From IMG/VR virus record IMGVR_UViG_3300043399_000361, positions 1 through 38,836 of that record: DNA of 38,836 bases; one strand, written 5' to 3'. The DNA is from a virus. The position numbers were made by a program, and so were the translations under genes. Each line of letters begins with the position of its first letter. Within the stretch, counting starts at the first letter, position 1. The notes beneath the pieces were generated by a model. It was given only the letters and a program-made list of their open reading frames with translations. It did no database searches and was not told where the DNA came from. This document shows, piece by piece, positions 588 through 38,324 of the stretch.

Positions 588-1463
588 TTATTTTGCGTCC
601 ATGTCCACCTTGTCCCTGAAGCCGAGGAACACTGGGAAGCGTGGCTTGTCCTTCACGCCAGTCGGCTGCGATTTGTACTTCACGACTTTGCCCATCAGGT
701 TGTCACCCATGGCCCATAGCAGTTGGCGCTGAGACTCCGTGAACCCGGTGCCGATGTCGAACTCGACGCCTGTCTTCAGGTCCTTGACCATGAGGGCGCC
801 TAGTGTCTGCTTGCCGACCTTGCCTGCCTTGTGGCTTGACCGCTCCAGTTGGCCCAGTTCGTTGCGCTTGGCCTCATTGGCATTGTGCTGAGCCTCACTG
901 AAGCCGATGACCTTGGCCTCTGCGTCGACAAAGCGCTTGACCTTGAGCAGCCACGCCTCCTTGGCAGTTGAACGGCCATGCTTGTACGGGCCATCTGGGT
1001 GGCGTAGCATGACGCCTTCGTAGCCCGCCGCAAGATAACTCTCCTCCCAAGTCAGGATGGCGCCCTCACGGTTGACCTTGTCATGTTGCACCTGCACAAA
1101 GTGGGTGTGCCGCTTTGTCCGTTTGAAAGCCATGTCCAAGCGCTTGGCAAACCCAGCGTCGTGGCTGAAGTCGTCGAACACGTAGAACTTCACCTTGGGC
1201 TGGCCCTCGATGCTCATGACGCCTGAGGTCGTCACTTGGAAGACCTCCTTGGCAATGGGCGACTCAACAATCAGTTCCCCATCGAGGCCATTGAACTCGT
1301 GATGACCAAACAGCAGTTGGACGTACTTGTTGGGGATCGGCTTCAAGGACCTGCCGACTGCGACCCCATCGATGATCAAGCAACGAATGCCGTCCAGCTT
1401 GGGGCTGAGCAGCATTGGGAACGGGATGACTGGGCCGGCAGGTGACGCGAGCATGGGTTTCAT
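588..1463 (-). CDS. ATP-dependent DNA ligase
   Basis: This 291-residue protein seals nicks in phage DNA during replication and repair through an enzyme-AMP intermediate. The adenylation motif KLDGIR is at residues 22-27, with Lys22 the expected AMP acceptor. DGELI (61-65), FYVFDDF (93-99), EGVMLR (149-154) and LLKVKR (172-177) fit the remaining nucleotidyltransferase motifs. A C-terminal OB-fold-like segment follows. The length is typical of small phage ligases. ATG 1463 follows a GAGG motif eight bases upstream. It is the last gene before the promoter-proximal gap preceding the pentapeptide gene. Confidence 0.9.
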   Translation of the reverse strand: MKPMLASPAGPVIPFPMLLSPKLDGIRCLIIDGVAVGRSLKPIPNKYVQLLFGHHEFNGLDGELIVESPIAKEVFQVTTSGVMSIEGQPKVKFYVFDDFSHDAGFAKRLDMAFKRTKRHTHFVQVQHDKVNREGAILTWEESYLAAGYEGVMLRHPDGPYKHGRSTAKEAWLLKVKRFVDAEAKVIGFSEAQHNANEAKRNELGQLERSSHKAGKVGKQTLGALMVKDLKTGVEFDIGTGFTESQRQLLWAMGDNLMGKVVKYKSQPTGVKDKPRFPVFLGFRDKVDMDAK

Positions 1464-2387: not shown

Positions 2388-2637
2388 TGAGCACCTCATC
2401 GAGCTTGGTGGCGTACCAGATGGCCTTCTTGTTGTCTTGAACCGAGCTGTCCTTCTTGCCCAGGCGCCACTGGTACTTGATGACTTGACCGCGAAGGAAG
2501 CCGATGAACTGCTCCTTGCCCAGGGCGGCACGGATGGCATCAATGCACTCGACCCCGTTGTCGGTCTCAGCGTAGTGAGGCGGATGGTTGACCACGTCCT
2601 TGACAGGAGCGGCCGGCTTAGTGATCTTGCGTTGCAT
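2377..2637 (-). CDS. DUF3310 family protein
   Basis: This 86-residue protein carries the NHPPHY signature (residues 17-22) and the downstream pattern ECIDAIRA...FLRGQVIKY...WRLG typical of DUF3310, a small phage protein often labelled nucleotide kinase-like without biochemical proof. ATG 2637 lies behind a strong AGGAG and overlaps the end of thyX by 20 bases. Association with nucleotide-metabolism genes is common for the family and is seen here too. Confidence 0.85.
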   Translation of the reverse strand: MQRKITKPAAPVKDVVNHPPHYAETDNGVECIDAIRAALGKEQFIGFLRGQVIKYQWRLGKKDSSVQDNKKAIWYATKLDEVLNEA

Positions 2638-3286
2638 CGAGAATCTCCTGGAGTGATGGCATGACGTCGAGCAGAGCGAGGCGGCACATGATGGCAATCT
2701 CGCGGTGCTCCTTCTGGGTACCGTTGCCGGCACGGAGTTGGATGTAGTGGATCCAGCTGCGAACTGAGCCGGCCATGTAGAGACGCGAAGGAGTCAGTCC
2801 TTCAGGCAGCAGGGCACGAGCAACTTCTTTCGCAATGCCACGCTCCAAGGCCTGTTGGTACACGGCCGAGGTGTAGGCCGCGACTCCTGACTGCTTGTCG
2901 TCCCACCACAGCTTCAGGTCGTCGTTGTAGACTTCCACGCTGTTCTGGCGGTTCTTGTGATCTTGCAGACGGGGTTCACGCAAGACAGGCTCGTCCACGA
3001 CAGCTGCGTAGCGCTGGCTGAACTCTTGGAAGCTGAAGGACCGATGGCGCAGAATCTGACGGGCGATGTCGCGGGTTGTGGTAATCTGAATGACTGCATG
3101 AGCCATCTCGAAAGGCGACCAGTGTTGGTTGCGGACCAGATACTTGAGCAGGCGAGGAGCTGTGCTGTGGTTGGCTTGGTTCTCAGGGTTCGAGACCCGA
3201 GCGCAGTAGGCCACCAGCTCCTCGCCCGTCTGGACGCCTTCCAGCTCAACAGGCTGGGTGAACGCGATCAGACGGACTTGGCTCAT
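2618..3286 (-). CDS. thyX: Flavin-dependent thymidylate synthase
   Basis: ThyX makes dTMP from dUMP using FAD, NADPH and methylene-tetrahydrofolate. The 222-residue protein has the ThyX signature RHR-x2-S-x4-S-x-R at residues 80-92 (RHRSFSFQEFSQR), and an HWSPFEM segment (55-61) like the usual H-x-SPFEH. ATG 3286 overlaps the stop of the upstream gene by four bases, so the longer frame is rejected. A second, ThyA-type enzyme is encoded at 26371-27153. ThyX therefore probably supplies thymidylate while the ThyA relative does something else. Confidence 0.95.
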   Translation of the reverse strand: MSQVRLIAFTQPVELEGVQTGEELVAYCARVSNPENQANHSTAPRLLKYLVRNQHWSPFEMAHAVIQITTTRDIARQILRHRSFSFQEFSQRYAAVVDEPVLREPRLQDHKNRQNSVEVYNDDLKLWWDDKQSGVAAYTSAVYQQALERGIAKEVARALLPEGLTPSRLYMAGSVRSWIHYIQLRAGNGTQKEHREIAIMCRLALLDVMPSLQEILDATQDH

Positions 3287-3498
3287 TCTTCCGCATCCTT
3301 CGCGTCGGTCTCGGCGCACAAGGTGTTGATGAACTCAAGTAAGTCGGCCTTGGCGACCGGGATGTCGGTCTGCTCAATCTCAACGTCCTTCTTCTTGCAG
3401 TCCAACTGCTCAACCAGCGCATCGCGTGTGGCGCGAGCATCGGCGTTCGTGGCGGCGTAGCGCTTGGCACCAGGGCCTGTTACGAGGTAGCAACGCAT
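3283..3498 (-). CDS. Hypothetical protein, 71 aa
   Basis: A small acidic protein (MRCYLVTGPGAKRY...) with no family recognised. The N-terminal beta-rich stretch is followed by a helical part and an acidic tail (ETDAKDAEE). The gene is sandwiched between the gp49/66-family gene and thyX and overlaps the thyX start by four bases, so it is translationally coupled to it. Confidence 0.65.
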   Translation of the reverse strand: MRCYLVTGPGAKRYAATNADARATRDALVEQLDCKKKDVEIEQTDIPVAKADLLEFINTLCAETDAKDAEE

Positions 3499-3500
3499 GG

Positions 3501-3880: not shown

Positions 3881-3906
3881 GAAAAGAAAGGAGACCGAAG
3901 TCTCCT
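3881..3906 (-). terminator. Rho-independent terminator, leftward
   Basis: On the minus strand a 7-bp stem AGGAGAC/GTCTCCT closes a TTCG tetraloop (3906-3889) and runs into TTTCTTTTC (3888-3880). A second small hairpin, GTCTGC-N3-GCAGAC, lies just upstream at 3907-3921. It follows the 68-aa gene at 3925-4131, which has its own promoter. Confidence 0.85.
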
Positions 3907-3924
3907 GTCTGCTTGGCAGACTGC

Positions 3925-4131: not shown

Positions 4132-4187
4132 GATTCACTCCTTCAAGTGGTTGATAACGCGTTGGGAGAATTCCCTCAGCAGTTGCG

Positions 4188-4229
4188 ATTCTAATCTACG
4201 CCGCCATGGCTGTAAACATGCGGTTTCAA
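4188..4229 (-). promoter_or_regulatory. Leftward sigma70-like promoter before the 68-aa gene
   Basis: On the minus strand TTTACA (4216-4211) is followed after 17 bp by TAGAAT (4193-4188), a near-consensus pair. TTGAAA (4229-4224) lies five bases upstream of TGTTTAC. The upstream element overlaps the last codons of the primase-helicase gene. Confidence 0.75.
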
Positions 4230-25901: not shown

Positions 25902-26369
25902 TCAAAGCTCCACAAGAAGCTGCTCCCAAGCCCTTCCGGCGCCAGTCCACAAGTCTTTGGCTGCCGAATGTGGGTACTCCTCCACATAGACGATCCGCTG
26001 GCAGCTCGTGTTCAGCAGCAGCTTGCAGCAGGTCATGCATGGGCTGGCCGTCACGTAGGCTGTGTGGATGGCGTACATGTCGCGGCACTGGAGCAAGGCG
26101 TTTTGCTCGGCGTGGATCGCTTGACAGCCATCGAGGTTCGTGCCACTTGGCGCCTGAGCCCCAGAGCAAGCATGGGGAAACCCGATCGGGTGCCATGGGT
26201 CATGCTGGTTGCAGTGAGGAAGACCGGCCGCGACGCCGTTGTACCCTGTTGAGAGCACATGACCACGGGCATTCAGCAAGACACACCCCACAGCTCGTCG
26301 GCAGCAGGTTGTCCGTTGGGCAGTCAGCAAGGCCAGCTTGAGGGCCCACTCGTCGCGGCTGAGTCTCAT
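25902..26369 (-). CDS. dCMP deaminase
   Basis: This 155-residue zinc enzyme converts dCMP to dUMP, feeding ThyX. The zinc site is HAEQNAL (86-92, His86 and proton-shuttle Glu88) with SPCMTC (109-114, Cys111 and Cys114). Extra Cys/His residues in the Gly/Pro-rich insert at about 50-85 resemble the second zinc site or allosteric loop of T4 dCMP deaminase. ATG 26369 is two bases past the stop of the ThyA-like gene; the longer frame is rejected. It is the last gene of the leftward unit. Confidence 0.92.
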   Translation of the reverse strand: MRLSRDEWALKLALLTAQRTTCCRRAVGCVLLNARGHVLSTGYNGVAAGLPHCNQHDPWHPIGFPHACSGAQAPSGTNLDGCQAIHAEQNALLQCRDMYAIHTAYVTASPCMTCCKLLLNTSCQRIVYVEEYPHSAAKDLWTGAGRAWEQLLVEL

Positions 26370-26370
26370 A

Positions 26371-27153
26371 TCAGTGCTCCCACCAACGAAGTTCGTCACC
26401 GACCTTGCTGTCACGCAAAGCAGCCAAGACTTTCATCAGGTTCTGAGGATCGTTCCAGAGCAGGATGTCGGTCTCCGGCTGTTCAAGCACTTCACTGGCC
26501 AAGCACAACTTGGCATCAGCCCAGTTGGTCTCGTACAGGTGGCTTGAAGCGGCCGTCAAGAAAAGACGCCCAGGCTTCACGGCGTTGGCGACTGATCGGT
26601 GCTCATTCAGCAGACCGCAGACCAAGTGACTCAGCATGCTGAAATTGAAGACGTCGTATGGCACGCCAAGCCAGACGTCACTCGACCGCATGAACACGTG
26701 GGCATTGAGCTTGCCACCGCGAATGCTGAAGAAGATCGCCACGGTGCATGGCACGTCTTTGGTCTGAGGTGGGCACTCACGCCAGATGGTCAGTCCAGCT
26801 TGGCGGCTGTCTTCATCGGCCAACAGCTTCTCAACAACGTAGGGCAGTTGCGCCTTGATCTTGGGGCCGTAGGCGCCGAAGAAGCGTTCACCATCATCGC
26901 TGAAGTCCTTGATGCGGCTGTTGTATGGGGCAATCGTCTCGACACGGTCGTCGCCAGACAGGATCCAAAAGGCTTCAGCTGCCATGAACTTGTAGCTCAG
27001 GCTGCGATCAGGTACACGGAGCACCGGACGGCGCATGTCGACCACCATGGTGCGTTGAGGAATCTCACGGGTCATCTTGCCACGCGGCGCCACTGGGTCA
27101 CCGTTGGCAAGAATGTCGTTGATGGCGTCGAGCCAAGTTCTTGAAAAGTCCAT
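26371..27153 (-). CDS. ThyA-family enzyme, probable dCMP hydroxymethylase
   Basis: This 260-residue protein has the ThyA framework: EAFWILSGDDR (60-70), GAYGPKI (93-99), catalytic Cys136 in KDVPCTVA, the phosphate-binding RSSD (156-159), and HLY near the C-terminus. After WLGVPYDV, Asp167 aligns with Asn177 of E. coli ThyA. That Asn selects uracil; Asp at this position marks dCMP hydroxymethylases such as T4 gp42, and the Asn-to-Asp change in ThyA gives cytosine specificity. Lys82 replaces Trp80 of E. coli. I infer a dCMP hydroxymethylase or methylase. It lies between the deaminase and kinase genes; AAGGA precedes ATG 27153. Confidence 0.82.
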   Translation of the reverse strand: MDFSRTWLDAINDILANGDPVAPRGKMTREIPQRTMVVDMRRPVLRVPDRSLSYKFMAAEAFWILSGDDRVETIAPYNSRIKDFSDDGERFFGAYGPKIKAQLPYVVEKLLADEDSRQAGLTIWRECPPQTKDVPCTVAIFFSIRGGKLNAHVFMRSSDVWLGVPYDVFNFSMLSHLVCGLLNEHRSVANAVKPGRLFLTAASSHLYETNWADAKLCLASEVLEQPETDILLWNDPQNLMKVLAALRDSKVGDELRWWEH

Positions 27154-27162
27154 GATGCTTCC

Positions 27163-28074
27163 TTAGATGAGGTCCAGCAGAGGATACCGCTGGCCGTGTT
27201 TGAATCGCTTCCAGCTCTGTGGGTGCTGGACAGTTGCCGCCTTGATCTTCAGCCGGTACAGCTGCTGGTAGGCTTCAGTGCCAAGTGTGATGACGCGCTC
27301 AGGAGTCAGGTCATGCAGCACAGACAGGTCCTGGTCTGAGTTGAGCCAGAGAATCTGATCCTCGCCCATCTCGATCAGATCAAGCTTCTCAGCCAACCAC
27401 TGGCTGCAACCTTCGCCGCTGAACGAGGCAAATGGCCATTGGTAGAACGAGTCACAGTCCTTGCGCTCGGCAAAAGCTTCACCAATCAGCACGATGCGCC
27501 CGTCCCAGTTGCCAGCCGAAGCCAAGTTCAACGGATGCTGGCGCATGCGCAGACCTTCGATCGTCATGGCCAGCTTGGCGTCGGCAAACAGATCGCCCTT
27601 GGTGTAGTCGTAGTCTAGCAGAGGCAGGTCGGTGGCCTGCTCCGCGTAGATGTCGTAGACCGTTTTGAGCTGGTGCTCGTTGTCCAGCATCTCCATGTGC
27701 TTGCGGCTGAGGTAGTTGGCCTTGACCGTCTCCCAAGCCGGTTGGCACTTGACCACCACGGCGCCGCAGCGCATGGCCAGACGCTCAAGCATCCGACGGC
27801 TGGCATCAGTCAAGCGATCACGGCCCTCGCGAAACGCGACGCCGTAAGGCATCTCGCTCAGCCAGCAGCGATCGAAGACCACGTCTTGGTAACCGAGCAG
27901 CGCAGGCAGCATGGCCTCCACGTACATGCGACCCAAGTTGCGACTGACTCGTGGCAATGCTGGGAAGTGGACGTACTTGGCGCCCGTCGACTCAGCAAAG
28001 ACCTTGGCAGCCGTGCTTTTGCCGCCTCCATCGGGACCTTCAAAGATGGTCAGCTTGCAGCTCACTTTGTCCAT
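27163..28074 (-). CDS. P-loop nucleotide kinase fused to a UDG-like domain
   Basis: The N-terminal part of this 303-residue protein (about 1-175) is a thymidylate-kinase-like P-loop domain with EGPDGGGKST (12-21), DVVFDRCWLSE (64-74) and a lid-like LSRKHMEMLDN. The C-terminal part (about 190-292) follows the uracil-DNA-glycosylase fold pattern: RIVLIGEAFAERKD (193-206), WPF (213-215), SGEGCSQWL (219-227), VITLGTEAYQQL (261-272) and HPQSWKR (284-290). The usual GEAPG is GEAFA, so ordinary uracil excision is doubtful. It probably phosphorylates the modified dNMP, with the second domain binding or editing bases. It overlaps the MazG-like gene by 13 bases. Confidence 0.75.
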   Translation of the reverse strand: MDKVSCKLTIFEGPDGGGKSTAAKVFAESTGAKYVHFPALPRVSRNLGRMYVEAMLPALLGYQDVVFDRCWLSEMPYGVAFREGRDRLTDASRRMLERLAMRCGAVVVKCQPAWETVKANYLSRKHMEMLDNEHQLKTVYDIYAEQATDLPLLDYDYTKGDLFADAKLAMTIEGLRMRQHPLNLASAGNWDGRIVLIGEAFAERKDCDSFYQWPFASFSGEGCSQWLAEKLDLIEMGEDQILWLNSDQDLSVLHDLTPERVITLGTEAYQQLYRLKIKAATVQHPQSWKRFKHGQRYPLLDLI

Positions 28075-28460
28075 GACAGTACCTCTTCCAGACGAGCTTC
28101 AGGGCCTACCCAGCCTGCAGGCTTCTTGACGTCGAAAGCACTGCCGCGCTTCGAGTCTTCGGCCTTGGCCACTCGGACCTTGGCCATGTTGCAGTTGTGA
28201 ACTGCGTGCATGCCGGCGTGCCACTGGGCTGGACTGATGCCGGCAAAAAGAGCGGTGCCATAGGCCACGTAGGCCAGATCCAGCAGCGCGTCAAATGCCT
28301 TCACCTTGTTGCCCTCAGCCAAAGCTTCCTTGAGTTCATCAAGCTCCTCTTGGAGGAACTTGACGCGGAATTCCTGCGCAGCAGGATCTTGCATGAGTTG
28401 ATCGTCGGTACCCAACGGGAGACCGAACTTCTCATGGAATTCAGCGACATTTCCAATCAT
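28062..28460 (-). CDS. MazG-like nucleoside triphosphate pyrophosphatase
   Basis: This 132-residue all-alpha NTP pyrophosphatase family member carries the metal-binding pattern EELDELKE (38-45) and FDALLDLAYVAYG (56-68), as in MazG and related dUTPase/dCTPase folds. In this gene cluster, hydrolysis of dCTP to dCMP would remove the normal nucleotide and feed the hydroxymethylase, the job of T4 gp56; that substrate is inference. The start overlaps the methyltransferase stop (TGATG). Confidence 0.78.
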   Translation of the reverse strand: MIGNVAEFHEKFGLPLGTDDQLMQDPAAQEFRVKFLQEELDELKEALAEGNKVKAFDALLDLAYVAYGTALFAGISPAQWHAGMHAVHNCNMAKVRVAKAEDSKRGSAFDVKKPAGWVGPEARLEEVLSWTK

Positions 28461-29278
28461 CAGAACGGCGCTCCTTTCGTTGCCTTGCGTGCCACAGGCT
28501 TGACAGGCTTGCCATCAGCTGCTTTGCGGCACACCCACAGGTTGTTGCGGGCGTGGTCTTCATGCAGCGGGCCAAAGATGTTGCTGATGGCATCGTTGTC
28601 GAAGTACTGCTCCAACGCTTTGCGGACTTCCAGCACGGCCGCCTTGCTGCAGCCAGTGGGGTCAACCTTGCCGATGTGCTTGATGTCCATGAACGTACCG
28701 AAGCGTCGCTCGATGACGTAGCCAGCCTTCTCGATGGCAGCCTGCAGCTCAGGCACCTTGTACTCGTGGATGTGGTTCTTGGCGTGACGCACGCCGTCGT
28801 AGACCGGGGTTGAGAGCAGCAACACGCCGCCCGGCTTGGTAGCCGCAAACATGGCCTTGAGCAGATTGGCACCATGCTCGACCTTCATGTGCTCAATGAC
28901 CTCGTAGTTGACAACGACATCGAAACCCTCGGGACGCGCCTTGAGGAGTTCCTTGTAACGCTCGACGAAGTTGAACTCGCCGATGAACTGGAGACGCTGG
29001 ATGTTGGACGGCTTCAGCTTGTTGAGGTCCACGCCAGTGTAGTGGTTGACATGAGCAGTTGTGCCGCCAGTGAGAATCTTGCTGAGCGGTTTGTCTTCCC
29101 CGCAGCCGACTTCAAGGACGTTGTGCTTGGCCGTGATGAATCGACGGGCAAAACTCCAGCGCCAGAAGTGGGCGGAGTAGTCGCGGTGCAGGGTGCGGCC
29201 ATGGACAGCTTCGTGCAGTTGTGTGGTATCGTAGTCGCGGGAGTCACGGGAAACTTCTTTGGTGCTTGATTTAGGCAT
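28460..29278 (-). CDS. Class I SAM-dependent methyltransferase
   Basis: This 272-residue protein has VLEVGCG (54-60) as SAM-binding motif I, TGVDLN (81-86), FDVVVNYEVIEHM (119-131) and KPGGVLLLSTP (148-158). It is the Methyltransf_11/23 style used for small molecules, with no DPPY or PCQ motif of the usual DNA methylases. HIHEY (169-173) suggests a substrate or metal site. The target is unknown. It is the first gene of the nucleotide-modification cluster and couples to the MazG-like gene, so tailoring of a modified nucleotide or base is a reasonable guess. AAGGA precedes ATG 29278. Confidence 0.82.
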   Translation of the reverse strand: MPKSSTKEVSRDSRDYDTTQLHEAVHGRTLHRDYSAHFWRWSFARRFITAKHNVLEVGCGEDKPLSKILTGGTTAHVNHYTGVDLNKLKPSNIQRLQFIGEFNFVERYKELLKARPEGFDVVVNYEVIEHMKVEHGANLLKAMFAATKPGGVLLLSTPVYDGVRHAKNHIHEYKVPELQAAIEKAGYVIERRFGTFMDIKHIGKVDPTGCSKAAVLEVRKALEQYFDNDAISNIFGPLHEDHARNNLWVCRKAADGKPVKPVARKATKGAPF

Positions 29279-29345: not shown

Positions 29346-29981
29346 TTACTTCGCCACCTTGGCTTCGGGCGGATTGGCGCCTTGCTTCTTCAGGTGGTTG
29401 CGGTACCACTTGACGTAGCCACGCTTCTTCTCGTCCAGACCGAACTCTGCTTGAACCTTCTCGAAGATTTGATCGTCGGTCAACTTGCCGGCCATGATCA
29501 GGTCTTGGAACATCTGCGCAGCCGACGGCTTCTTCTCGCCTGCCTTGGCAGGTTTTGCAGCGGGCTTTGCTGTTTTGGCTGCTGGCTTCTCAACCTTGGC
29601 CGTCTTCACTGGTGCCGCCTTCTTAGCGGCGGATTTGGTCGCCGGCTTTTCAGCCGTGACCTGCTTCTTGGTGGTAGCCATTTCGAGCTCCTGTTTACTG
29701 ATGTTGATAACTTGGCCAAGGTACTCCATGGCCTCCTTTGTCGCCCCGAGGGTCTGGCTGTAGTTCACGAAGAGCTGACAGGCCTTCTCAACGGGGTATC
29801 CTTCCATCGGCGTGAACCGCTGGTCGAATGAATCCGCCGACGTCGAATGGACCTCAAGGCCCAGACTGACGTCTAACGGGATGAACTTGACGAGGCCTGC
29901 TGCTCGCTCGACTTGGATGCAGGTCCTACGTTGACTGTCATAGCACGGCATGATGACCGGCGCTTGTTTTTTAGTTGCCAT
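29346..29981 (-). CDS. Two-part protein with Ala/Lys-rich linker and WYR domain
   Basis: The N-terminal domain of this 211-residue protein (about 1-100; DSQRRTCIQVERAAGLVKFI) is unrecognised. A histone-H1-like Ala/Lys/Pro linker follows (about 105-150; AAKKAAPVKTAKVEKPA), then a C-terminal helical domain (about 155-205) ending YVKWYRNHLKKQG. That domain resembles the C-terminus of the protein at 30413-30841. ATG 29981 follows GGAG. An internal in-frame ATG at 29681 (MATTKKQ) has its own AGGAG, so a 111-residue short form may also be made. The Lys-rich linker suggests DNA binding. Confidence 0.65.
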   Translation of the reverse strand: MATKKQAPVIMPCYDSQRRTCIQVERAAGLVKFIPLDVSLGLEVHSTSADSFDQRFTPMEGYPVEKACQLFVNYSQTLGATKEAMEYLGQVINISKQELEMATTKKQVTAEKPATKSAAKKAAPVKTAKVEKPAAKTAKPAAKPAKAGEKKPSAAQMFQDLIMAGKLTDDQIFEKVQAEFGLDEKKRGYVKWYRNHLKKQGANPPEAKVAK

Positions 29982-30219
29982 TCTTTTCTCCAGATAGTTT
30001 ATCAGCGATGACGGACAGCTCAAGAAGGCCTTGCATCAAGACCTTGGCTTCAGGCCAGTACTGCGGTCCGTAGACCTGCCAGTGAAGCTGAACTGTGCCG
30101 CTCTTCTTGCTCACGAGAGCACGCCTGCTGCCGTCGATGTACAGCTGAAAGCGAATCTCCTCGTGCGTGCTCTCGTCAATAATCTCAATGGTGTCCGGGT
30201 TGCTGATAGTCATTTGCAT
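29971..30219 (-). CDS. Hypothetical protein, 82 aa
   Basis: A mostly beta-type small protein (IEIIDESTHEEIRFQLYIDG; VQLHWQVYGPQYW) with no family recognised. ATG 30219 is used here; ATG 30213, which overlaps the upstream stop (ATGA), is equally possible. It overlaps the following gene by 11 bases and belongs to the same leftward operon. Confidence 0.6.
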   Translation of the reverse strand: MQMTISNPDTIEIIDESTHEEIRFQLYIDGSRRALVSKKSGTVQLHWQVYGPQYWPEAKVLMQGLLELSVIADKLSGEKNGN

Positions 30220-30412: not shown

Positions 30413-30841
30413 TCAAGCTTCCTTAGGCAGCAGACCAGTGCGCTTCATCTCGCAGCGATACCAAGTGGGATAGTGCTTCTTGGAGTCATCAAGGTTGAAC
30501 TGCTGCTTGAGAGCTTCCCAGACCTCTTGGTTGGTCTTGCCAGACAGGATCAACTCGCGGGCAGTGGCAGAGATGCCCATTTTCTTCGGCTTGACTTCAA
30601 CAACTGGGTCTGCAGCACGGCGGCCTGCCTTGACGACTTTGGCCTTGGGCTCGTCAGCAACTTTGGTCTCAGCAGGCTTGGGGTTCTTCAAAGATTCGAG
30701 GTGGGCAGCAGCTGCACCGAGTTCGCACTCGAACTTGTCGCCGACCTTCGTGATGAAGAGGTTGTAATCGCGAGCTTGGAGGCCGAGCTTACGCAGAGCG
30801 GAAGTGGCGGAGTCGCGGGCGGTGTAGGTCTTGGTCGTCAT
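30413..30841 (-). CDS. Protein with C-terminal WYR domain, 142 aa
   Basis: The N-terminus (about 1-50; DSATSALRKLGLQARDYNLF) is followed by a Lys/Ala/Pro linker and a C-terminal helical domain (about 88-138) with ELILSGKTNQEVWEALKQQF, YPTWYR and MKRTG. The same domain closes the gene at 29346-29981. ATG 30841 has GAGG about nine bases upstream and is the first gene after the promoter at 30899-30940, so it is probably well expressed. Confidence 0.7.
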   Translation of the reverse strand: MTTKTYTARDSATSALRKLGLQARDYNLFITKVGDKFECELGAAAAHLESLKNPKPAETKVADEPKAKVVKAGRRAADPVVEVKPKKMGISATARELILSGKTNQEVWEALKQQFNLDDSKKHYPTWYRCEMKRTGLLPKEA

Positions 30842-30898
30842 GATAGGGTCCTCAGCAAGGTTTGTTCGGTCAAGCACCATTGCGTTGACCGTGATTAG

Positions 30899-30950: not shown

Positions 30951-32420
30951 CTATTTGCGCAATTTTTTGAGTGCGTCAAACAAAGCATTCTGTCCACGGC
31001 GCTTCGACTTCACGGCAGCCAAGACCACTTCATCGACTGTCCCACGAGCCATGATGTGGTGTACGAAGACCTTCTTGCTCTTGTTGCCCTGCCGAAGCAC
31101 ACGACGGATGAACTGGTCGTAGAGCTCGTAGTCCCAGGTCAGTGAGTGCCAGCAGACGTGGTTCCCCATCTCCTGCAGGTTCAGACCGTGGGCCATGGCT
31201 TGCGGGTGGCCGAGCAGCACAGGCAACTTACCGGCGTTCCAGAGCTGCTCCAGCTCAGATGACCGCTTGGCACTCACGCCTCCGCCGATGTACGGCACAT
31301 CTTGTCCGAGCTTCTCGCGCAGCCGATCGAGGTCATGCTCGAAGTCGTAGGCCACGAGGAGCGGGCTGCCTTGCAGCTCGTCGATCAGATCGGCCAAGGC
31401 GTCAACCTTCTCGGTGTGCAGGTTCACCCACTCACGCTTGGACTTGGGCAGCTTGATCAGGGCCTGCACGTCAGGATCGAGGTAGATGCCGCCATTGGCC
31501 ACCTGACGGCACTTCATGGAGGCTGCTGCTGCCGTCGATGCGACGATGATCTTGGCATCCAGCTTGGCGATCAGATCCTCTTCGAGCTGGTTGTACATGG
31601 TCATCACATCAGCCGGCAGGTCGATGCGGATGTTGTTCTCAATGAGGGCGGGCATGTCGAGATAGTCGTCAGCCGCCATGCGCAAAGCGAGTGGGCTGAT
31701 GCGCTCGTAGATCTCGTCCTCAGCACCTTCGCGGATGTTCCAGCTGAAGCCGTCATGGCTTGGTACGAAGTACTTCATCCGGTAGTGGCTGATATACGGA
31801 CCCAGCGTGCGGCCTTGGTCAAGGATGTAGCACTGGCCAAACAGATCGAGCAGGCCATTAGACGCTGGTGAACCAGTCAGGCCCCAACGACGACGGAAGG
31901 TGTTGAGCACCAGCTTCAGACCTTTGAAGCGGTTGGTGTTGGTGTGCTTGAACTTAGACAGCTCGTCAACGACCAGCGTGTCGAAGCCGAGGTTCTTGAA
32001 GCGGCGCAGATCGACCTCGACCTTGGTCTTGCCCTGGGCAGTCTTGGTCTTCTTGGCTTGCAGGAGCCAATCGAGACCTTCAGGGTTGATGACGTAGACG
32101 TCTGCATCAGACTTCAGCGCCTCTTCCTTCCTGGGACCATGCAGCACAGCTACCTTGAGCCCGCCGAAGTCAGTCCACTTGCTGACCTCCTTGGGCCACA
32201 CGCTGTAGCAGACTCGCAGCGGGGCGATGAGCAGGACCTTGTCCAGCAGCTTCTTCTGCTTGAGCAGTTTGATGGCAGCCAGCGTGATGCTAGTCTTGCC
32301 CAGCCCTGGATCCAAGAACAGAGCAGATGCTGCGTGCTCGAGCAAGAATTTGACGGCCTTCTTTTGATAGGCGTGTGGTTGCCACGGCTTCGATGACTGC
32401 GGAAAAAGCTCGGATTGCAT
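30951..32420 (-). CDS. SNF2-type DEAD/DEAH-box helicase
   Basis: This 489-residue SF2 protein has a Q-motif-like HAYQKKAV (16-23), Walker A DPGLGKTS (37-44), DELS (152-155) as motif II and LTGSPASNG as motif III. Motif V/VI-like segments (WHSLTWDYELYDQFIRRVLR; VFVHHIMARGTVDE) lie near the C-terminus. It likely remodels DNA or protein-DNA complexes in replication or recombination. The gene begins inside the VRR-NUC gene, overlapping it by 131 bases, a pairing known in other phages. Confidence 0.9.
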   Translation of the reverse strand: MQSELFPQSSKPWQPHAYQKKAVKFLLEHAASALFLDPGLGKTSITLAAIKLLKQKKLLDKVLLIAPLRVCYSVWPKEVSKWTDFGGLKVAVLHGPRKEEALKSDADVYVINPEGLDWLLQAKKTKTAQGKTKVEVDLRRFKNLGFDTLVVDELSKFKHTNTNRFKGLKLVLNTFRRRWGLTGSPASNGLLDLFGQCYILDQGRTLGPYISHYRMKYFVPSHDGFSWNIREGAEDEIYERISPLALRMAADDYLDMPALIENNIRIDLPADVMTMYNQLEEDLIAKLDAKIIVASTAAAASMKCRQVANGGIYLDPDVQALIKLPKSKREWVNLHTEKVDALADLIDELQGSPLLVAYDFEHDLDRLREKLGQDVPYIGGGVSAKRSSELEQLWNAGKLPVLLGHPQAMAHGLNLQEMGNHVCWHSLTWDYELYDQFIRRVLRQGNKSKKVFVHHIMARGTVDEVVLAAVKSKRRGQNALFDALKKLRK

Positions 32421-32658
32421 TGTCGTGTACCTCTACTTGGTAGCCAAGCTGCTTGAGCTGGCCATGGATGTATTCTTGTTTTGGCTCAGGCTCTTCGCCT
32501 GGCCGCTTGAACTCAATCAGCAACGGACGACCACCGGGAATCCAGAAAATCCTGTCTGGGTACCCTGTGTCGCCCGGCGTCACGAGTTTAGAGCCGATGA
32601 TCCCGAGGTGTTTCCACGCCAGGTCAACGGCATCACGTTCGATCTTTGATTCTCTCAT
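32290..32658 (-). CDS. VRR-NUC domain nuclease
   Basis: This 122-residue protein carries the PD-(D/E)xK-type VRR-NUC core: GDTGYPDRIFWIPGG (29-43) and LLIEFKRPGEEP (46-57), then QEYIHGQLKQLGYQVEVHDN. Family members cut branched or flap DNA. The C-terminal tail of about 43 residues is encoded within the SNF2 gene in another frame. Linked VRR-NUC and SNF2 genes suggest joint action in recombination or fork repair. Confidence 0.87.
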   Translation of the reverse strand: MRESKIERDAVDLAWKHLGIIGSKLVTPGDTGYPDRIFWIPGGRPLLIEFKRPGEEPEPKQEYIHGQLKQLGYQVEVHDNAIRAFSAVIEAVATTRLSKEGRQILARARSICSVLGSRAGQD

Positions 32659-32843
32659 GGAAGCTTGTGAAGATCACGACAAGGAACGCAGACGCCATTC
32701 ACCAGGCGTCCTGACCACTCGCCGCAAAGATCACAATCACCAGGACGCCCTACAGGTATCTTGGCCGCTTCCTCGCGAGTCTTCTTGATCATCGCTTCGT
32801 CCCATGGAGCGTCGCGGTCAAGCTGGCGATCAACTTCGTCCAT
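32655..32843 (-). CDS. Small C4 zinc-finger protein (DksA/TraR-like)
   Basis: This 62-residue protein has Cys37, Cys40, Cys52 and Cys55 (CDLCGEWSG ... GVCVPC) in the spacing of TraR/DksA-type zinc fingers. The acidic N-terminus (DEVDRQLDRDAPWDE) resembles the acidic tip of TraR, which binds RNA polymerase through its secondary channel. A role in tuning host RNA polymerase is possible. It overlaps the VRR-NUC start by four bases. Confidence 0.75.
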   Translation of the reverse strand: MDEVDRQLDRDAPWDEAMIKKTREEAAKIPVGRPGDCDLCGEWSGRLVNGVCVPCRDLHKLP

Positions 32844-32847
32844 CTCG

Positions 32848-33372
32848 TCACCCCATCAACTGAAGCGCATGAGTGGCCTGCGACTTGGCATCGTCGAGCG
32901 CGTTGTGGTAGGTACCTTGACGAGCCAACTTGACTTGAGGCTGCAGGCTCTTCAGCGTGCGGTAGCAGCGGTTGTTCCAGAAGTCCCACGGTTGGTTGCT
33001 GCCAATGGCCGCGTAGCAGTTGGCCAAGATGGCGTTGTCAAAGTCTGAACCATTACCCCAGACTTTGACTTTCTTCAGTCCAAACTGGTTGAGGTACTCA
33101 GTGAGCTTGTTCAAGGCGTCACGCAGATGCTCGCCACCACCGTCGACCTCGGCAAGGATCTTCTTGGCCTCGGCATTCTGACCTTCCCACCATTTCACAG
33201 TCTCTGGGTCCTCATGAAGGCCGAGCTTGAAGCAACTGAGACGGTTCACAACCACGTAGAACTCAGCGCCAAGCTGCTTGGTTTTGGGGTCGAAGGCTAC
33301 AGCGCCAATCGAGAGGATGGAGCACCCGGCACGGCGGCCAAGGGTCTCGAGGTCAATCATCACGTGTTCCAT
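32848..33372 (-). CDS. DnaQ-like 3'-5' exonuclease
   Basis: This 174-residue exonuclease has MIDLETLG (5-12, catalytic Asp7 and Glu9), GNGSDFDNAIL in the middle and HNALDDAKSQA near the C-terminus, the DEDD plan of DnaQ and Rv2179c-like enzymes. It may act in degradation or proofreading. I start it at ATG 33372 because AAGGAG lies six bases upstream; an ATG two codons earlier abuts the Shine-Dalgarno. Confidence 0.85.
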   Translation of the reverse strand: MEHVMIDLETLGRRAGCSILSIGAVAFDPKTKQLGAEFYVVVNRLSCFKLGLHEDPETVKWWEGQNAEAKKILAEVDGGGEHLRDALNKLTEYLNQFGLKKVKVWGNGSDFDNAILANCYAAIGSNQPWDFWNNRCYRTLKSLQPQVKLARQGTYHNALDDAKSQATHALQLMG

Positions 33373-33382
33373 TTTCATCTCC

Positions 33383-34108
33383 TTAGTATTTGCAGGGACC
33401 GTTCTTGCTGGCACTGAAGAAGCACCAACGGCATTTGTCATTGGGGCGTGGGGCGAAGGTCGTGTCGTTCATCATGGCCTTCGTGCGCTTGGCCCAGACC
33501 TTCTTCAGGCGGTCGATGTCCTTCGGTGTGAAGATCAACGGCTTGTCAGCGTCTGGGTAGATGGTACCCTGGTCGAGGTAGGCCAGGCGGGGACGGACTT
33601 CTTTAAGGTGCGGGTGCAACAGGAGAGCCGCCAGTGCATAGAGCTCGAGCTGCTCCATGTATTCCTCATTCATCTCAGCGCGGAACTTCCCTGTCTTCCA
33701 GTCAGTCACGATGAGGATGTCGTCGCCTTCGTGGTGGGCACAGTCAAGCTTGATGCGAACCCAGCAGTGAACCCAGTTGTTCCACTCGGTTTCTTCCCAG
33801 TCCTTGGTGAAGGACCAGTTGTCTTCGACCACCATACCGTTGATCGACTTCTTGAACTGCTTGCGCAGCGCCTTGAGCTCATCACTGAACAGCTTCAGCT
33901 CAGGCGGAATGGTGCGACCTTTGCCCTTGATGTACTCCTCAGCCAGTGTGTGAATCGCAGCACCACGAGCCATGGCTGGGTTTGGTGGCTCCTTGATCTT
34001 GTCGATGTGCTTCAGCTTGAACTTCAATGGACAATTTTTATAGTCCGAGTAGCGACTGAACGACCAGCTAGTTGCTGGCTTGATTGGGATCACTTTTTTG
34101 GTGACCAT
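33383..34108 (-). CDS. Cas4/RecB-like PD-(D/E)xK exonuclease
   Basis: This 241-residue nuclease has four cysteines placed as in Cas4/AddB iron-sulfur enzymes: Cys26 near the start (YKNCPLKF) and Cys226, Cys229 and Cys239 at the end (CRWCFF ... GPC). The catalytic residues are His53 (GAAIHTLAEE), Asp121, and Asp135/Lys137 in TDWKTGKF. It probably makes single-stranded ends for recombination. AAGGAG precedes ATG 34108; the gene overlaps the endonuclease VII-like gene by 19 bases. Confidence 0.87.
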   Translation of the reverse strand: MVTKKVIPIKPATSWSFSRYSDYKNCPLKFKLKHIDKIKEPPNPAMARGAAIHTLAEEYIKGKGRTIPPELKLFSDELKALRKQFKKSINGMVVEDNWSFTKDWEETEWNNWVHCWVRIKLDCAHHEGDDILIVTDWKTGKFRAEMNEEYMEQLELYALAALLLHPHLKEVRPRLAYLDQGTIYPDADKPLIFTPKDIDRLKKVWAKRTKAMMNDTTFAPRPNDKCRWCFFSASKNGPCKY

Positions 34109-34497
34109 GATAGTTCTCCTTGTAAATATTTAGCCGCTGTTTCAACGTTCTTCAATGAGTCATTCAATAACCCAAGCCCTCTATTGCACCGATGGCACAA
34201 CAGTCCTCGCACCTTGCCGGTCTTGTGGTCATGATCAACACAGAGGAATCTCTTCCCAGTTTGGCCGGTGTCAGATGATCTACAAATCGCGCATTTGCCT
34301 CGTTGACTCTTGAACATCCGGTCGTAGTCTTCAGGTGTGATACCATACGAGAAGCGAAGGGCAATTCGTCGAACATTGGAAGCGTAGAGTTCAGGATCTT
34401 TGGCCTTGCGCTCACGCATCTTGTCGGCGTAGTAAGTCGGGTTGCGCTCACGAAACCTCTTCTGCGCCTCACGCCTTCTGGCAAGAAGTTCACTCAT
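34090..34497 (-). CDS. Endonuclease VII-like Holliday junction resolvase
   Basis: This 135-residue His-Me finger nuclease has zinc ligands CAIC (69-72) and CHRC (101-104) around the catalytic VDHDHKTG (87-94), then NRGLGLLND (105-113). The plan matches T4 endonuclease VII, which resolves branched DNA before packaging. A mobile HNH origin is an alternative, since it abuts the polymerase gene (ATGA overlap) and looks more AT-rich than its neighbours. Confidence 0.87.
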   Translation of the reverse strand: MSELLARRREAQKRFRERNPTYYADKMRERKAKDPELYASNVRRIALRFSYGITPEDYDRMFKSQRGKCAICRSSDTGQTGKRFLCVDHDHKTGKVRGLLCHRCNRGLGLLNDSLKNVETAAKYLQGELSWSPKK

Positions 34498-36410
34498 AGC
34501 ACCTTGCCTTTCTTGTCGTAGTCCTGGAGTTCATCCCAGTTGGTTGCGGAGATTGCCCCCTCGCTCAGGATGGAGACGTCGAACTCAACCGACTCCATTG
34601 TCTTGCGCAGCACTTCCATCTCAGGTTTGAGAATCTTCTTCGGCACACTGACCGTGACTTGGTCATGGACGTTGAGGACGATCTTGGCGTCAGGATGCTT
34701 GGCTGCATGGTACCTGATCAAGGCCTCCTTAGTGCAGTCAGCGGCAGAACCTTGAATGAGCACGTTGACCAGCTTATAGTCGAACTCACGGATGCGACCA
34801 TCAATGAGCTTTGGCTCCTCGCAATAGTACTCACGCCCACCCCAAGTGCGGATGGGTTCCTTATTCTTGGCCCGCAACTTCATGTCGCTGTACATCTGCT
34901 TGAGCCCAGGGTAGAGCATCAGAATGGCCTTCTTCAACTCACTAGACTCCTCGACCGTCATGCCGTTGCGCTCAGCAAGCTTGCCGACGCCCATGCCATA
35001 GATCAGACCGAGGTTCGTGTTCTTCACCGGCTTGCGGTCATAGAACTTGCCCATCTTCTCAAGCTCAGCCTTGGCGTAGTCGTGGAAGTCAATCCAAGGA
35101 TTCTCGACGTACTTGTCCATCAAGGCGCCACCGTCGAAGTGGGCCAAGATGCGAGGTTCCTGCTGGGAGTAGTCTCGGTCGATGAAGATCTCGCCTTTGA
35201 ACGGCGTGATGTAGCTGCGCACCTTGGGCAGCGGCGGCAAGGTCTCCTTGAAGGGAGACTTGGGCAACTTCTTCTCAGGTGCTTCGTGGTGGAAGATGGC
35301 GGCGAACTCCTTGGGGATGTTCTGGAAGTTCGGCGTGCTTGACAGTCGACCAGTCCGCGTGCCAACGTTGTGGTCACCAGACGGCGACTTAATTTGGTTC
35401 CAGGTCGTGAAGATCAGGCCACCAGACGCGTTGGCTGTGTTGAGCCATGGCTGCATGAAGGTGTTCAAGCAGGTGTTGAGCTGGGTCCTGTACTTGAGGA
35501 CGGCCAGCAGCACCTTGTCAGTGACTCCTTGCAGCAGGGCCTCCTTGTTCGTTTGGAACTTGCCAGTTGGCGTCTTGGGCAGCAGATCAGGATCGGCCTT
35601 GCCGGCTTCCACCATGGCAGCCACGAGCTGTGCGCCAGAGTCGAGGTTGATGTCAGCATCGGCCTTGAGGGTCTTGATGATCCAAGCATCGATCTTGACG
35701 CGCCAGTCGTTGTACATGGCCACGTCATCGGCCAATCGCTTGTGGTCCATCTGCAAGCCTTGGCGCTCCATCTCAAGCAGAATGGGCATGAGCTTGCGTT
35801 CACGGTCGTAGGAGGTCAGCATACCGCGATCAACCGTCTTCTTCCACAGCAGGTTGAAGATGGCCTCAGTGCGGTCCACGTCACCGTTGGCGTACTTGCC
35901 GACGAGGTCTCCAGGCGCGTAGGCGATGTACCGGCCAAAGTAGTGCTCAGACGATTTGCTCTTGCTGATCTTGACACCTTTGACCGGCTGGTTGGCGATG
36001 AGCCACTCACCGACTGCGTCTTGCTCATCAGCAGGCAAGCCAAGCAGCCGAGTGGCCGATGGCTTCAGACCGAGTTCCATTTGGTGCGGGTCATCAAGGA
36101 ACAGCAGGAACATCGTGTCATGGATCTTGTCCCATGTTGGGATAGGCAGACCGAAGTGCTCTTCAGCTACGTCGACGTCGAACTTGCCGTTCTGGAAGAG
36201 GATGCCATCTTTGTACGCCCAGGCTTTCTTCAGCTCAGCAGCTCCATCTGACCAACAGCAGTTGTTGCCAGTGGGATGTCCCCAGGCGTAGTACTTGGAC
36301 TTCTTGCCAGGATACTTGATGGACACGCCGACAGGCATGGGAGGGTACTTTGGTCTGCCCTCAATCCCAAAAGTCTCGAAGTCCACTGTGACTGGTCTAG
36401 GCTGTTTCAC
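34494..36410 (-). CDS. DNA polymerase, family A
   Basis: This 638-residue replicative polymerase has a 3'-5' exonuclease starting DFET (10-13). The polymerase domain contains GTRTGRLSSTPNFQNIP, motif A IDRDYSQQEPR (near 411), motif B with VKNTNLGLIYGMG (near 463) and motif C NVHDQ (near 580). I start it at GTG 36410 (GTG AAA CAG CCT), with GGGAG seven bases upstream. The longer open frame overlaps the HNH gene and is not conserved-looking. The start lies 14 bases inside the HNH gene's end. Confidence 0.9.
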   Translation of the reverse strand: MKQPRPVTVDFETFGIEGRPKYPPMPVGVSIKYPGKKSKYYAWGHPTGNNCCWSDGAAELKKAWAYKDGILFQNGKFDVDVAEEHFGLPIPTWDKIHDTMFLLFLDDPHQMELGLKPSATRLLGLPADEQDAVGEWLIANQPVKGVKISKSKSSEHYFGRYIAYAPGDLVGKYANGDVDRTEAIFNLLWKKTVDRGMLTSYDRERKLMPILLEMERQGLQMDHKRLADDVAMYNDWRVKIDAWIIKTLKADADINLDSGAQLVAAMVEAGKADPDLLPKTPTGKFQTNKEALLQGVTDKVLLAVLKYRTQLNTCLNTFMQPWLNTANASGGLIFTTWNQIKSPSGDHNVGTRTGRLSSTPNFQNIPKEFAAIFHHEAPEKKLPKSPFKETLPPLPKVRSYITPFKGEIFIDRDYSQQEPRILAHFDGGALMDKYVENPWIDFHDYAKAELEKMGKFYDRKPVKNTNLGLIYGMGVGKLAERNGMTVEESSELKKAILMLYPGLKQMYSDMKLRAKNKEPIRTWGGREYYCEEPKLIDGRIREFDYKLVNVLIQGSAADCTKEALIRYHAAKHPDAKIVLNVHDQVTVSVPKKILKPEMEVLRKTMESVEFDVSILSEGAISATNWDELQDYDKKGKVL

Positions 36411-36750
36411 GTCGTGTCTCCCACATTCGTTTAGATGCTGCCGATATTTTGACCTTTGCCTCGTCTGTATGGCGCCCAGAAAATCTGGTGCCACCCTTAC
36501 GCAAAGACGAGTGCCTGCCCTTCTTGACGGAGTCTCTGATGTTGTCTTTGGCCGAACCAACGAAATGGTGGTCATCAACCAAGCATCCTACAGTGTCACA
36601 TTTATGGCAGACGTATTGCTCTGTCAGCAACTGGCCATGTCTGAGTTTGTAGACCTTACGCGGAGCCAATGGCGATGGGTGAACTAAGCATTCACCGACC
36701 CACTTTGCTTCAGCCTCAAAGTCTTTGATTGTTCTTTTGCGTGCTGGCAT
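36397..36750 (-). CDS. HNH homing endonuclease
   Basis: This 117-residue protein has CHKCDTVGCLVDDHHFVGS (about 48-66) and DNIRDSVKKGRHS, the HNH_3 core of phage homing nucleases, and a C-terminal NUMOD3-like TDEAKVKISAASKRM. It sits directly upstream of, and overlaps, the DNA polymerase start, a classic homing site. ATG 36750 overlaps the preceding stop (TAATG). Confidence 0.88.
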   Translation of the reverse strand: MPARKRTIKDFEAEAKWVGECLVHPSPLAPRKVYKLRHGQLLTEQYVCHKCDTVGCLVDDHHFVGSAKDNIRDSVKKGRHSSLRKGGTRFSGRHTDEAKVKISAASKRMWETRRETA

Positions 36751-36953
36751 TACGTCGCCCCAAGTTCTACACGTTCACGGTCGGCGCGGACCTTGTTCAG
36801 CCGGCTGTGGATGCGCTTGATGAACTGCCTGCGCTTGCGACCTTTGAGCTCCTCCTTCAGGAGGGCTTGGCACGCAGGCTCATCAGCATCGCGCAGGACG
36901 TCGTTCAGAGCCAGCCAAGACTGGAGCGCTGGGTTCGTCACTAGTTTCTTCAT
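36750..36953 (-). CDS. Hypothetical basic protein, 67 aa
   Basis: A helical, strongly charged protein (EELKGRKRRQFIKRIHSRLN) with no family recognised. AGGAG precedes ATG 36953 by nine bases. It is the first gene after the terminator at 36972-37012, so it leads the polymerase module. Confidence 0.7.
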   Translation of the reverse strand: MKKLVTNPALQSWLALNDVLRDADEPACQALLKEELKGRKRRQFIKRIHSRLNKVRADRERVELGAT

Positions 36954-36971
36954 AATTGTTGCTCCTGAGTC

Positions 36972-37012
36972 AAAAAGGCCCGACGGCCAAGGGTTAGTTC
37001 AGCACGTCGGGC
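36972..37012 (-). terminator. Rho-independent terminator, leftward
   Basis: On the minus strand GCCCGACG and CGTCGGGC form a perfect 8-bp stem with a 19-base loop, followed by CTTTTT. It lies between the possible ssDNA-binding gene and the polymerase module, and would lower transcription of the latter relative to the former. Confidence 0.85.
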
Positions 37013-37030
37013 AAAGGCTCCTGCGAAGGA

Positions 37031-37840
37031 TCAGTACTTACCGCGCTTGGCCGCAGGTTTTGCTGCCGCACGGCTGCCGCGCTTCGGAGGAGGTGGTGCC
37101 TTCTCTTCAGCCGGCTGGTAAGGGAAGTCGATCGTGGACTTGGCTTCCTCGTGACGCTGCATGATGGTGCCCATCAGCTCGTCAGGGATGTTCATGATAG
37201 GCTCGAAGATGACCTTGAACTGGGTCTTCGGATCAGGCACAACCTTGACCTTGGTCACGATGCCAAACGGAGGGCGGCGCAGTGCACCGGCCACCTGCTT
37301 GACGAACGAGGCGTAGCCCTTGACCGACGTGACCGGCAGCTTCATGAAGCCGATGGCCGTGGAAGCGAAGTGCTCCTCGTCCTCGAACATCTCGAGCTTG
37401 CCAGACTGGTTGAAGGTACCTGCCGGGATCATCGCCAGACGGCGGGTCTCACGAGCAGCCTTTCCGCGACCGGTATCAGCCGAGCCCCACTCACAGACTT
37501 CGCTTTCGCAGCACAGCTTGCCTGCGAACTCGGGGTCGGAGTTCTCGTGCCAGACCATGGTCTTCTCATCACGACCGAAGGCGAATGCCACCGGCGATTG
37601 AGGAGTGTCAGGATCGTACTTGCCTTCGTAGTAGGTGGTCTCGAAGATGCTGTCCAAGATGACCACAGCCATCTGGTTGCCGGGCAGCGGAGCATCTTGC
37701 CAAGACAGGATGCCGCCCCTGGCGCTGAAGAACTGGCCGCCTCCGGTGTTGGCTTCCATGCCGGCAGCGACTTCAGCTTGCTTGGCGAGTTCTTCGTCCC
37801 ACTTGACGAGGGCGGTCGATTGAGTTTTCTTTGTAGCCAT
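37031..37840 (-). CDS. Conserved phage replication protein, possibly ssDNA-binding
   Basis: This 269-residue protein reads GGGQFFSARGGILSWQDAPL (about 33-52), then PGNQMAVVILDSIFE, and has a Cys-containing loop CCESEVCEWGSADTGRGK (about 109-126). The C-terminal tail is Pro/Lys/Arg-rich (APPPPKRGS). From memory, this pattern recurs in phage genes found next to polymerase and recombination genes. A ssDNA-binding or annealing role is inferred from context and from the abundance implied by the terminator. AAGGA precedes ATG 37840. Confidence 0.6.
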   Translation of the reverse strand: MATKKTQSTALVKWDEELAKQAEVAAGMEANTGGGQFFSARGGILSWQDAPLPGNQMAVVILDSIFETTYYEGKYDPDTPQSPVAFAFGRDEKTMVWHENSDPEFAGKLCCESEVCEWGSADTGRGKAARETRRLAMIPAGTFNQSGKLEMFEDEEHFASTAIGFMKLPVTSVKGYASFVKQVAGALRRPPFGIVTKVKVVPDPKTQFKVIFEPIMNIPDELMGTIMQRHEEAKSTIDFPYQPAEEKAPPPPKRGSRAAAKPAAKRGKY

Positions 37841-37926
37841 GATGATGGTTCCTTAGTGATTAGTAACGAGCACTGCGCGGGGTTGAAAGATCAGAACCTT
37901 GAGCCGCGCCCCAAGATCTTGATTGG

Positions 37927-38322
37927 TTAAACCTTGTTGATGGACACCGAGACAGCATTGAAGTGCTCGACACCTGGGACTTCTTTGCCTGCCTCCCAAC
38001 GCTCTTTGATGGCCGCGTCAGTCAGGCGCTTCTGCATGAGGTCGAAGCTGCCGGTCTTCTTCACATACTTGTAGAAGGCGTCCCAGTCCTTGACCTGAGG
38101 AATCTGCTTGGTCACGACAGTGACACGAGCCAGCTTGCCAGCCACGCCAGACGCTTCGGACTTTGGCAGGTTTTCAATGATGTGGTTCTTGAGAGCAGTC
38201 TCTTCAGCTGCGATCTCGTCGACCTTCTTCTGCTCGGCCAAGCGCTTGTTGCGCAGCTCGAACAGTTTATCCGCGCAGGCGCCTAGTGCCTTGGGAAATT
38301 TGTACTTAACTTCTGTTGCCAT
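37927..38322 (-). CDS. Hypothetical protein, 131 aa
   Basis: A helical, coiled-coil-like N-terminal part (LFELRNKRLAEQKKVDEIAA) is followed by a compact domain (ARVTVVTKQIPQVKDWDAFY; FDLMQKRLTDAAIKERWEAG) ending in a beta-like tail. From memory, similar proteins lie beside the preceding gene type in many phages; function unknown. I start at ATG 38322 behind AAGGAAG, three bases after the pentapeptide stop. The 86-bp gap to the next gene (37841-37926) holds only an imperfect GCGCGG/CCGCGC hairpin. Confidence 0.72.
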   Translation of the reverse strand: MATEVKYKFPKALGACADKLFELRNKRLAEQKKVDEIAAEETALKNHIIENLPKSEASGVAGKLARVTVVTKQIPQVKDWDAFYKYVKKTGSFDLMQKRLTDAAIKERWEAGKEVPGVEHFNAVSVSINKV

Positions 38323-38324
38323 GA

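Follow-up and report, generated by a model that had tools for sequence, protein, structure and literature searches.

The 5-hydroxymethylcytosine (5hmC) pathway of phage T4 combines the hydroxymethylase gp42 with a dCTPase/dUTPase (gp56), a kinase (gp1), the deaminase Cd and glucosyltransferases. In gp42, Asp145 activates the water that forms the hydroxymethyl group, the substitutions D145N and D179N abolish hydroxymethylation, and thymidylate synthase (TS) carries Leu at the position of Asp145 (PMC6400193). A second set of modified-cytosine systems was described by MetaGPA, where PF00303, PF01503, PF00383, PF14437 and the ligase domains PF14743/PF01068 are associated or co-occur with cytosine-modified environmental phage contigs, the TS of these contigs has Asp at position 177, and the tailoring enzyme shown is a 5hmC carbamoyltransferase belonging to a 5-carbamoyloxymethylcytosine system (PMC8670742). 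Here we describe a five-gene cassette that occupies positions 25902 to 29278 (minus strand) of the 38,836-base virus record IMGVR_UViG_3300043399_000361 from IMG/VR (this whole stretch is referred to as the window). The cassette follows T4-like logic and is built from different parts; it is set apart as a variant by the MazG-type predicted dCTPase, the fusion of a kinase with a uracil-DNA glycosylase (UDG)-like domain, and the methyltransferase slot.

The cassette very probably serves to make a modified cytosine, and the virion DNA probably has hydroxymethylated cytosine in place of cytosine. Gene identities, active-site signatures, conservation and the exchange of genes at fixed slots form the sequence basis of this prediction, and published DNA resistance comes from a cultivated relative, Stenotrophomonas phage AXL3. 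We infer from these data all reactions proposed below, including the substrates of the MazG-type protein and the kinase and, above all, the methyltransferase step.

Gene content of the cassette

The cassette genes are arranged in the order methyltransferase, MazG, kinase-UDG, ThyA-like and dCMP deaminase. The S-adenosylmethionine (SAM) methyltransferase (28460..29278, 272 aa; Pfam Methyltransf_23, 4e-13) overlaps by 1 base with the MazG/PRA-PH-type nucleoside triphosphate pyrophosphatase (28062..28460, 132 aa; Pfam PRA-PH/MazG, 5e-12), which overlaps by 13 bases with the gene for a P-loop kinase carrying a UDG-superfamily-like domain (27163..28074, 303 aa; phrog_761 thymidylate kinase, 4e-16). 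The latter is separated by 9 bases from the gene for the ThyA-family predicted dCMP hydroxymethylase (26371..27153, 260 aa; Pfam Thymidylat_synt, 2e-22), followed after 1 base by the dCMP deaminase gene (25902..26369, 155 aa from ATG; Pfam dCMP_cyt_deam, 2e-19; phrog_174, 4e-38). The start of the deaminase is more likely the ATG at 26369 than the GTG at 26414 of the longer open reading frame. Pfam and PHROGs thus agree on the five gene types named at this position in the initial annotation; its description of the genes as contiguous and overlapping holds for contiguity and for two junctions, the other two being short gaps.

The metabolic logic is the same as in T4, with several differences in composition. 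The MazG/PRA-PH protein takes the place of gp56, a TMPK-like kinase-UDG fusion that of gp1, and ThyX that of Td, in line with the earlier claim that the dCTPase and the kinase are not arranged as in T4. The window also differs in its SAM methyltransferase and in the compact, contiguous arrangement of the cassette; no glycosyltransferase (the T4 glucosyltransferases included), carbamoyltransferase or C5 DNA methylase was recognised by Pfam and PHROGs among the main open reading frames of the window. All of the MetaGPA-associated domains listed above occur in the window, and the resemblance extends to the Asp177-type TS, its PRA-PH and dCMP deaminase neighbours and the ligase domains. The difference is that a methyltransferase is found where the carbamoyltransferase would sit: PF16861 was found in none of 34 records (the window, AXL3, PW916, MW202621 and 30 related contigs).

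The ThyA-like enzyme

We aligned 31 sequences, taking in T4 gp42 and, as a uracil-type control, a kuttervirus enzyme that we take to be a dUMP hydroxymethylase. The catalytic and specificity residues of gp42 are conserved in the window. Asp167 of the ThyA-like protein (motif LGVPYD) aligns with gp42 Asp179, the cytosine-recognising position that corresponds to TS position 177, which confirms the cytosine-type residue reported earlier for this ThyA relative. Cys136 corresponds to the gp42 nucleophile Cys148 and Asp133 to Asp145; Glu60 and Tyr95 are also retained relative to gp42, and Thr137 is listed among the key residues. The Asp133-equivalent, three residues before the catalytic Cys, is invariant across the alignment, and every aligned cassette relative has Asp at the Asp179-equivalent position. 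Asn is found there solely in the kuttervirus control, which has the Asp145-type residue but not the cytosine-type Asp. Both motifs are present in 54 of 55 ThyA-like relatives, while the remaining one (L083) retains DIPCT (DxPCT) and shows SYD.

The closest PDB sequence match of the ThyA-like protein is the CMP 5-hydroxymethylase MilA of mildiomycin biosynthesis (4.6e-18), which ranks above all thymidylate synthases. The two proteins have in common the Asp before the Cys, the Cys-Thr motif and the Asp at the 177 position. Unlike deoxyribose enzymes, which have Ser and Arg at the corresponding positions, MilA carries Ala176 and Lys133, and its preferred substrate is ribose CMP (PMC5175136); the ThyA-like family differs from MilA in its RSSD motif with Ser. 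On balance, the ThyA-like protein is predicted to be a dCMP hydroxymethylase.

The proposed pathway

In the proposed pathway, the MazG-type enzyme would cleave dCTP (and dUTP) to the monophosphate, excluding plain dCTP from DNA, and the ThyA-like enzyme would hydroxymethylate C5 of dCMP using methylene-tetrahydrofolate and water. The kinase would then raise hydroxymethyl-dCMP to the diphosphate, with the host nucleoside diphosphate kinase (NDK) completing the triphosphate. The deaminase would turn surplus dCMP into dUMP, from which a separate ThyX would make dTMP, and the methyltransferase would then most likely tailor the hydroxymethylated base or nucleotide. The flavin-dependent thymidylate synthase ThyX is encoded at 2618..3319 on the minus strand (Pfam Thy1, 3e-38; phrog_85, 3e-68); as it provides dTMP, the ThyA-like gene is not needed for this purpose.

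The MazG-type protein is predicted to be a dCTP (and dUTP) pyrophosphatase. It may alternatively serve only in nucleotide house-cleaning; the presence of a dUTPase_2-type protein in the MazG slot of some relatives (see below) fits the dCTP/dUTP role.

The kinase-UDG protein, a predicted hydroxymethyl-dCMP kinase, consists of a kinase domain (residues 1-175) and a UDG-like domain (residues about 180-303). The former has both the P-loop GPDGGGKST and the TMPK fold, and in the AlphaFold2 model of the fusion (predicted local distance difference test, pLDDT, 92) it resembles YorR and TMPK with Z of 13 to 14. The C-terminal part has no significant Pfam match. When it was compared with the UDG family by hhalign using a 28-sequence profile, the E-value was 8e-6, whereas five control profiles gave values of 0.15 to 0.5. 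This supports the UDG-like domain proposed in the initial annotation; an earlier profile of three UDG sequences gave a weak E-value of 0.011. The UDG motifs GE, PF, LG.A and HP are collinear in this domain. When the model of the whole fusion was searched with Foldseek and VIA, the kinase domain filled the results and was the only part matched; solved UDG folds were not among the hits. Since the UDG-like domain is absent in some relatives (e.g. L036 and L094), it is accessory; a base-sensing role for it is something that we can only infer.

Conservation of the cassette and exchange of its modules

The search for homologous cassettes suggested in the initial annotation was run and found the cassette again in more than 50 viral contigs, as well as in the genomes of three named phages. 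Scans of IMG/VR yielded 9 kinase, 29 ThyA-like and 47 methyltransferase loci, and a profile scan yielded 79 loci. The co-occurrence counts below rest on 65 of these 79 related contigs, namely those with enough upstream sequence, and are uncorrected for contig kinship. The ThyA-like gene is accompanied in all 65 contigs by either a MazG-type gene (60) or a dUTPase_2 (PF08761)-type gene (5), and the deaminase is kept in 61. This association exceeds chance.

The kinase is found in 45 of the 65 contigs and a DUF1599-like protein in 17, the two never occurring together; their exchange involves at least seven changes on the tree of the ThyA-like proteins. The DUF1599-like protein (about 130 aa) is encoded between the MazG and ThyA-like genes (L014:7603-7998, and likewise L025, L027, L032, L046, L063, L071 and L076).

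A second exchange concerns the methyltransferase, which is present in 52 contigs. In nine others there is a triad consisting of an SGNH-like protein, a 380-aa protein and a PALP-type pyridoxal phosphate enzyme, and none of the contigs has both. The 380-aa protein matches no family in Pfam, PHROGs or NCBIfam. The triad is located in the methyltransferase's place, next to the same core cassette (L034:3069-6120, L036:3748-6808, L157, L158, L162, L164 and L166), and is a candidate for another cytosine hypermodification. A homologue of C5 DNA methylases is present in ten contigs, once together with a glycosyltransferase-like gene, and in these contigs the methyltransferase may be present or absent. 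Taken together, the distribution suggests a shared core cassette with a tailoring module that is swapped between related phages at the same slot. Such an exchangeable slot offers a way to discover additional DNA bases together with their biosynthetic enzymes.

The C5 methylase homologues carry an NPPC motif and lie in or beside the cassette (L039:4308-6307, L040:4749-6284, L151, L168, L143 and L150). They are odd in phages expected to carry 5hmC; in one case the homologue is followed by the glycosyltransferase-like gene.

Orthologous cassettes are found in AXL3, Pseudoxanthomonas phage PW916 and the Manatee Spring phage MW202621, with identities of 70 to 74% for the methyltransferase, 57 to 63% for the ThyA-like protein and 44 to 51% for the kinase-UDG protein. 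In AXL3 all five genes are present with their order unchanged, and a further gene is annotated as a second thymidylate synthase, ThyX-like according to its authors. The cassette genes of AXL3 and PW916 differ in name from ours, having been called thymidylate or deoxyuridylate enzymes by their authors. The public names of the ThyA-like genes are 'thymidylate synthase' in AXL3 (L090, 24942-25751), where the product is gp28, and 'deoxyuridylate hydroxymethyltransferase' in PW916 (L002, 3280-4098). Because both proteins carry the cytosine-type Asp, these two annotations are probably wrong.

The methyltransferase

The methyltransferase profile and AlphaFold model (AlphaFold2, pLDDT 86.7) group with small-molecule O- and N-methyltransferases (UbiG, Hen1). 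The top structural match of the model is E. coli CmoM (Z 18.3 and 18.1), a tRNA 5-carboxymethoxyuridine methyltransferase that acts on the C5 substituent of a pyrimidine (PMC12783734). The likeness to CmoM therefore lies in the structural rank and the C5-pyrimidine-substituent chemistry, while identity is about 16% and the Z margin is narrow.

The methyltransferase had the highest identity among the cassette genes in 21 of the 28 loci compared, with a median of 71% versus 65, 60.5 and 52.5% for the other cassette genes. Its relatives are those of the 47 IMG/VR loci, all in viral contigs, and a search of about 85,000 bacterial and archaeal genomes gave matches on just two contigs of metagenome-assembled genomes, each with the same cassette. 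These two contigs (L177 and L178), which are filed under Lentisphaera and Chromatiales, have the full cassette and resemble binned phage contigs. The methyltransferase family thus seems to be dedicated to phage cytosine modification.

Because it is dedicated to the cassette and exchanged at its slot, the methyltransferase may, with about even chances, be a tailoring enzyme for the hydroxymethylated base. O-methylation of the hydroxymethyl group would be the simplest chemistry, which we offer as a tentative guess. Rather unlikely as a specific proposal is a virion base that is 5-methoxymethylcytosine or another methylated 5hmC derivative, with the methyltransferase capping the hydroxymethyl group. 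No report of such a phage DNA base was found in the papers searched for methoxymethyl-cytosine.

Restriction resistance of AXL3 DNA and alternative explanations

Sites were counted in the AXL3 genome for a list of enzymes, and each of these has sites there; KpnI has 13 and Eam1105I, an enzyme that recognises the same site as AhdI, has 14. Of the 37 enzymes tried on AXL3 DNA, 35 failed to cut it and two, TasI (AATT) and Tru1I (TTAA), did so; an altered G or C was suspected (PMC7504290). T4 DNA is likewise cut completely by MluCI (AATT) and MseI (TTAA) (PMC7653180). The hydroxymethylation pathway is a specific chemical prediction for this resistance, which the authors of AXL3 could not explain, and the modified-cytosine chemistry is directly testable on this laboratory phage.

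The names given by the authors of AXL3 and PW916 would make the cassette an ordinary thymidylate-synthesis operon, leading from dCMP through dUMP and dTMP to dTDP. We regard this as highly improbable, given that the uracil-type Asn is replaced by Asp in all aligned cassette relatives, that ThyX already makes dTMP, and that AXL3 DNA resists nearly every enzyme with C or G in its site. A 5-methylcytosine pathway as in Xp12, with the ThyA-like protein as dCMP methylase, is also very unlikely: although Asp at position 177 alone can convert TS to a dCMP methylase (cited in PMC8670742), Asp or Glu at the Asp145 position is a hydroxymethylase signature (PMC6400193), and the ThyA-like protein has Asp there. 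Moreover, KpnI and Eam1105I fail to cut AXL3 DNA (PMC7504290) despite their 13 and 14 sites, while KpnI and AhdI digest the 5-methylcytosine DNA of Xp12 to completion (PMC7653180). For this reason AXL3 DNA appears to behave as 5hmC-type or bulkier rather than plain 5-methylcytosine DNA, an argument that is strong but not final, as the AXL3 and Xp12 panels differ in enzymes, conditions and suppliers. Among the cytosine modifications proposed in the initial annotation, hydroxymethylation is well supported by the active-site residues, the gene context and the published AXL3 phenotype, and the 5-methylcytosine option is disfavoured. There is also some possibility, which we judge to be the lesser one, that the virion DNA contains plain 5hmC and that the methyltransferase acts elsewhere (on tRNA, a host protein or a small metabolite), a reading that differs from the favoured one in the tailoring only. 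It is consistent with the resistance of T4gt DNA, which contains 5hmC, to 82% of enzymes (PMC7653180), with the weak PHROGs match of the methyltransferase to a tRNA methyltransferase (2e-7), and with one contig, L148, in which the core genes are present and the 7 kb upstream of them contain no recognised tailoring gene. The phage- and cassette-restricted distribution of the methyltransferase, its high conservation and its replacement by other modules at the same place argue for tailoring instead.

Besides the differences between the restriction panels, four observations weigh against the hydroxymethylation pathway with tailoring as proposed here. At the position of T4 Ser94, which lies two residues ahead of the active-site Tyr and is Ser or Thr in the T4 signature, the ThyA-like family has Gly. 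Gly is also found at this position in the aligned kuttervirus enzyme, and gp42 S94A retains about 25% activity (PMC6400193). We thus predict that the ThyA-like protein works like gp42 as a hydroxymethylase, and do not claim its membership in the strict T4 dCMP hydroxymethylase (dCH) signature group because of this Gly. Of the 17 kinase-less contigs, 11 were tested, and in none of these was a kinase of phrog_761 or phrog_139 found at any position; hence the kinase step is not essential to every version of the cassette, and in these contigs it must fall to the host kinase or some other enzyme. The earlier claim that each T4 step has a candidate stands for the window, but the kinase step is not universal, given the DUF1599-like replacement in the 17 contigs. 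The methyltransferase fold is generic, with unrelated small-molecule methyltransferases within about one Z unit of CmoM. Finally, the Fisher test of the mutual exclusion of methyltransferase and triad disregards relatedness, and on the tree about three tailoring changes are enough.

Other genes of the window

An ATP-dependent DNA ligase with the domains PF14743 and PF01068 is encoded at 588..1463 on the minus strand; both domains are tied to cytosine-modified contigs in MetaGPA (PMC8670742). The gene at 29346..30023, also on the minus strand, encodes a conserved cassette-leader protein with a C-terminal domain (YVKWYRNHLKKQGANPPE); it adjoins the methyltransferase in most loci, and its homologue in AXL3 is gp32 (46% identical). 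The proteins encoded at 29346-30023 and 30413-30880 have in common this C-terminal domain of about 60 aa, for which no family name was matched and which heads the cassette in most relatives.

With a podovirus-like portal and a P22 gp7-like ejection protein, the structural genes of the window suggest a podovirus, in contrast to those of AXL3, a siphovirus. The window (30951-38472 and 588-6328) and AXL3 (L090) have in common the helicase, exonuclease, polymerase, primase, ligase and cassette, thus the replication-modification module crosses virion types.

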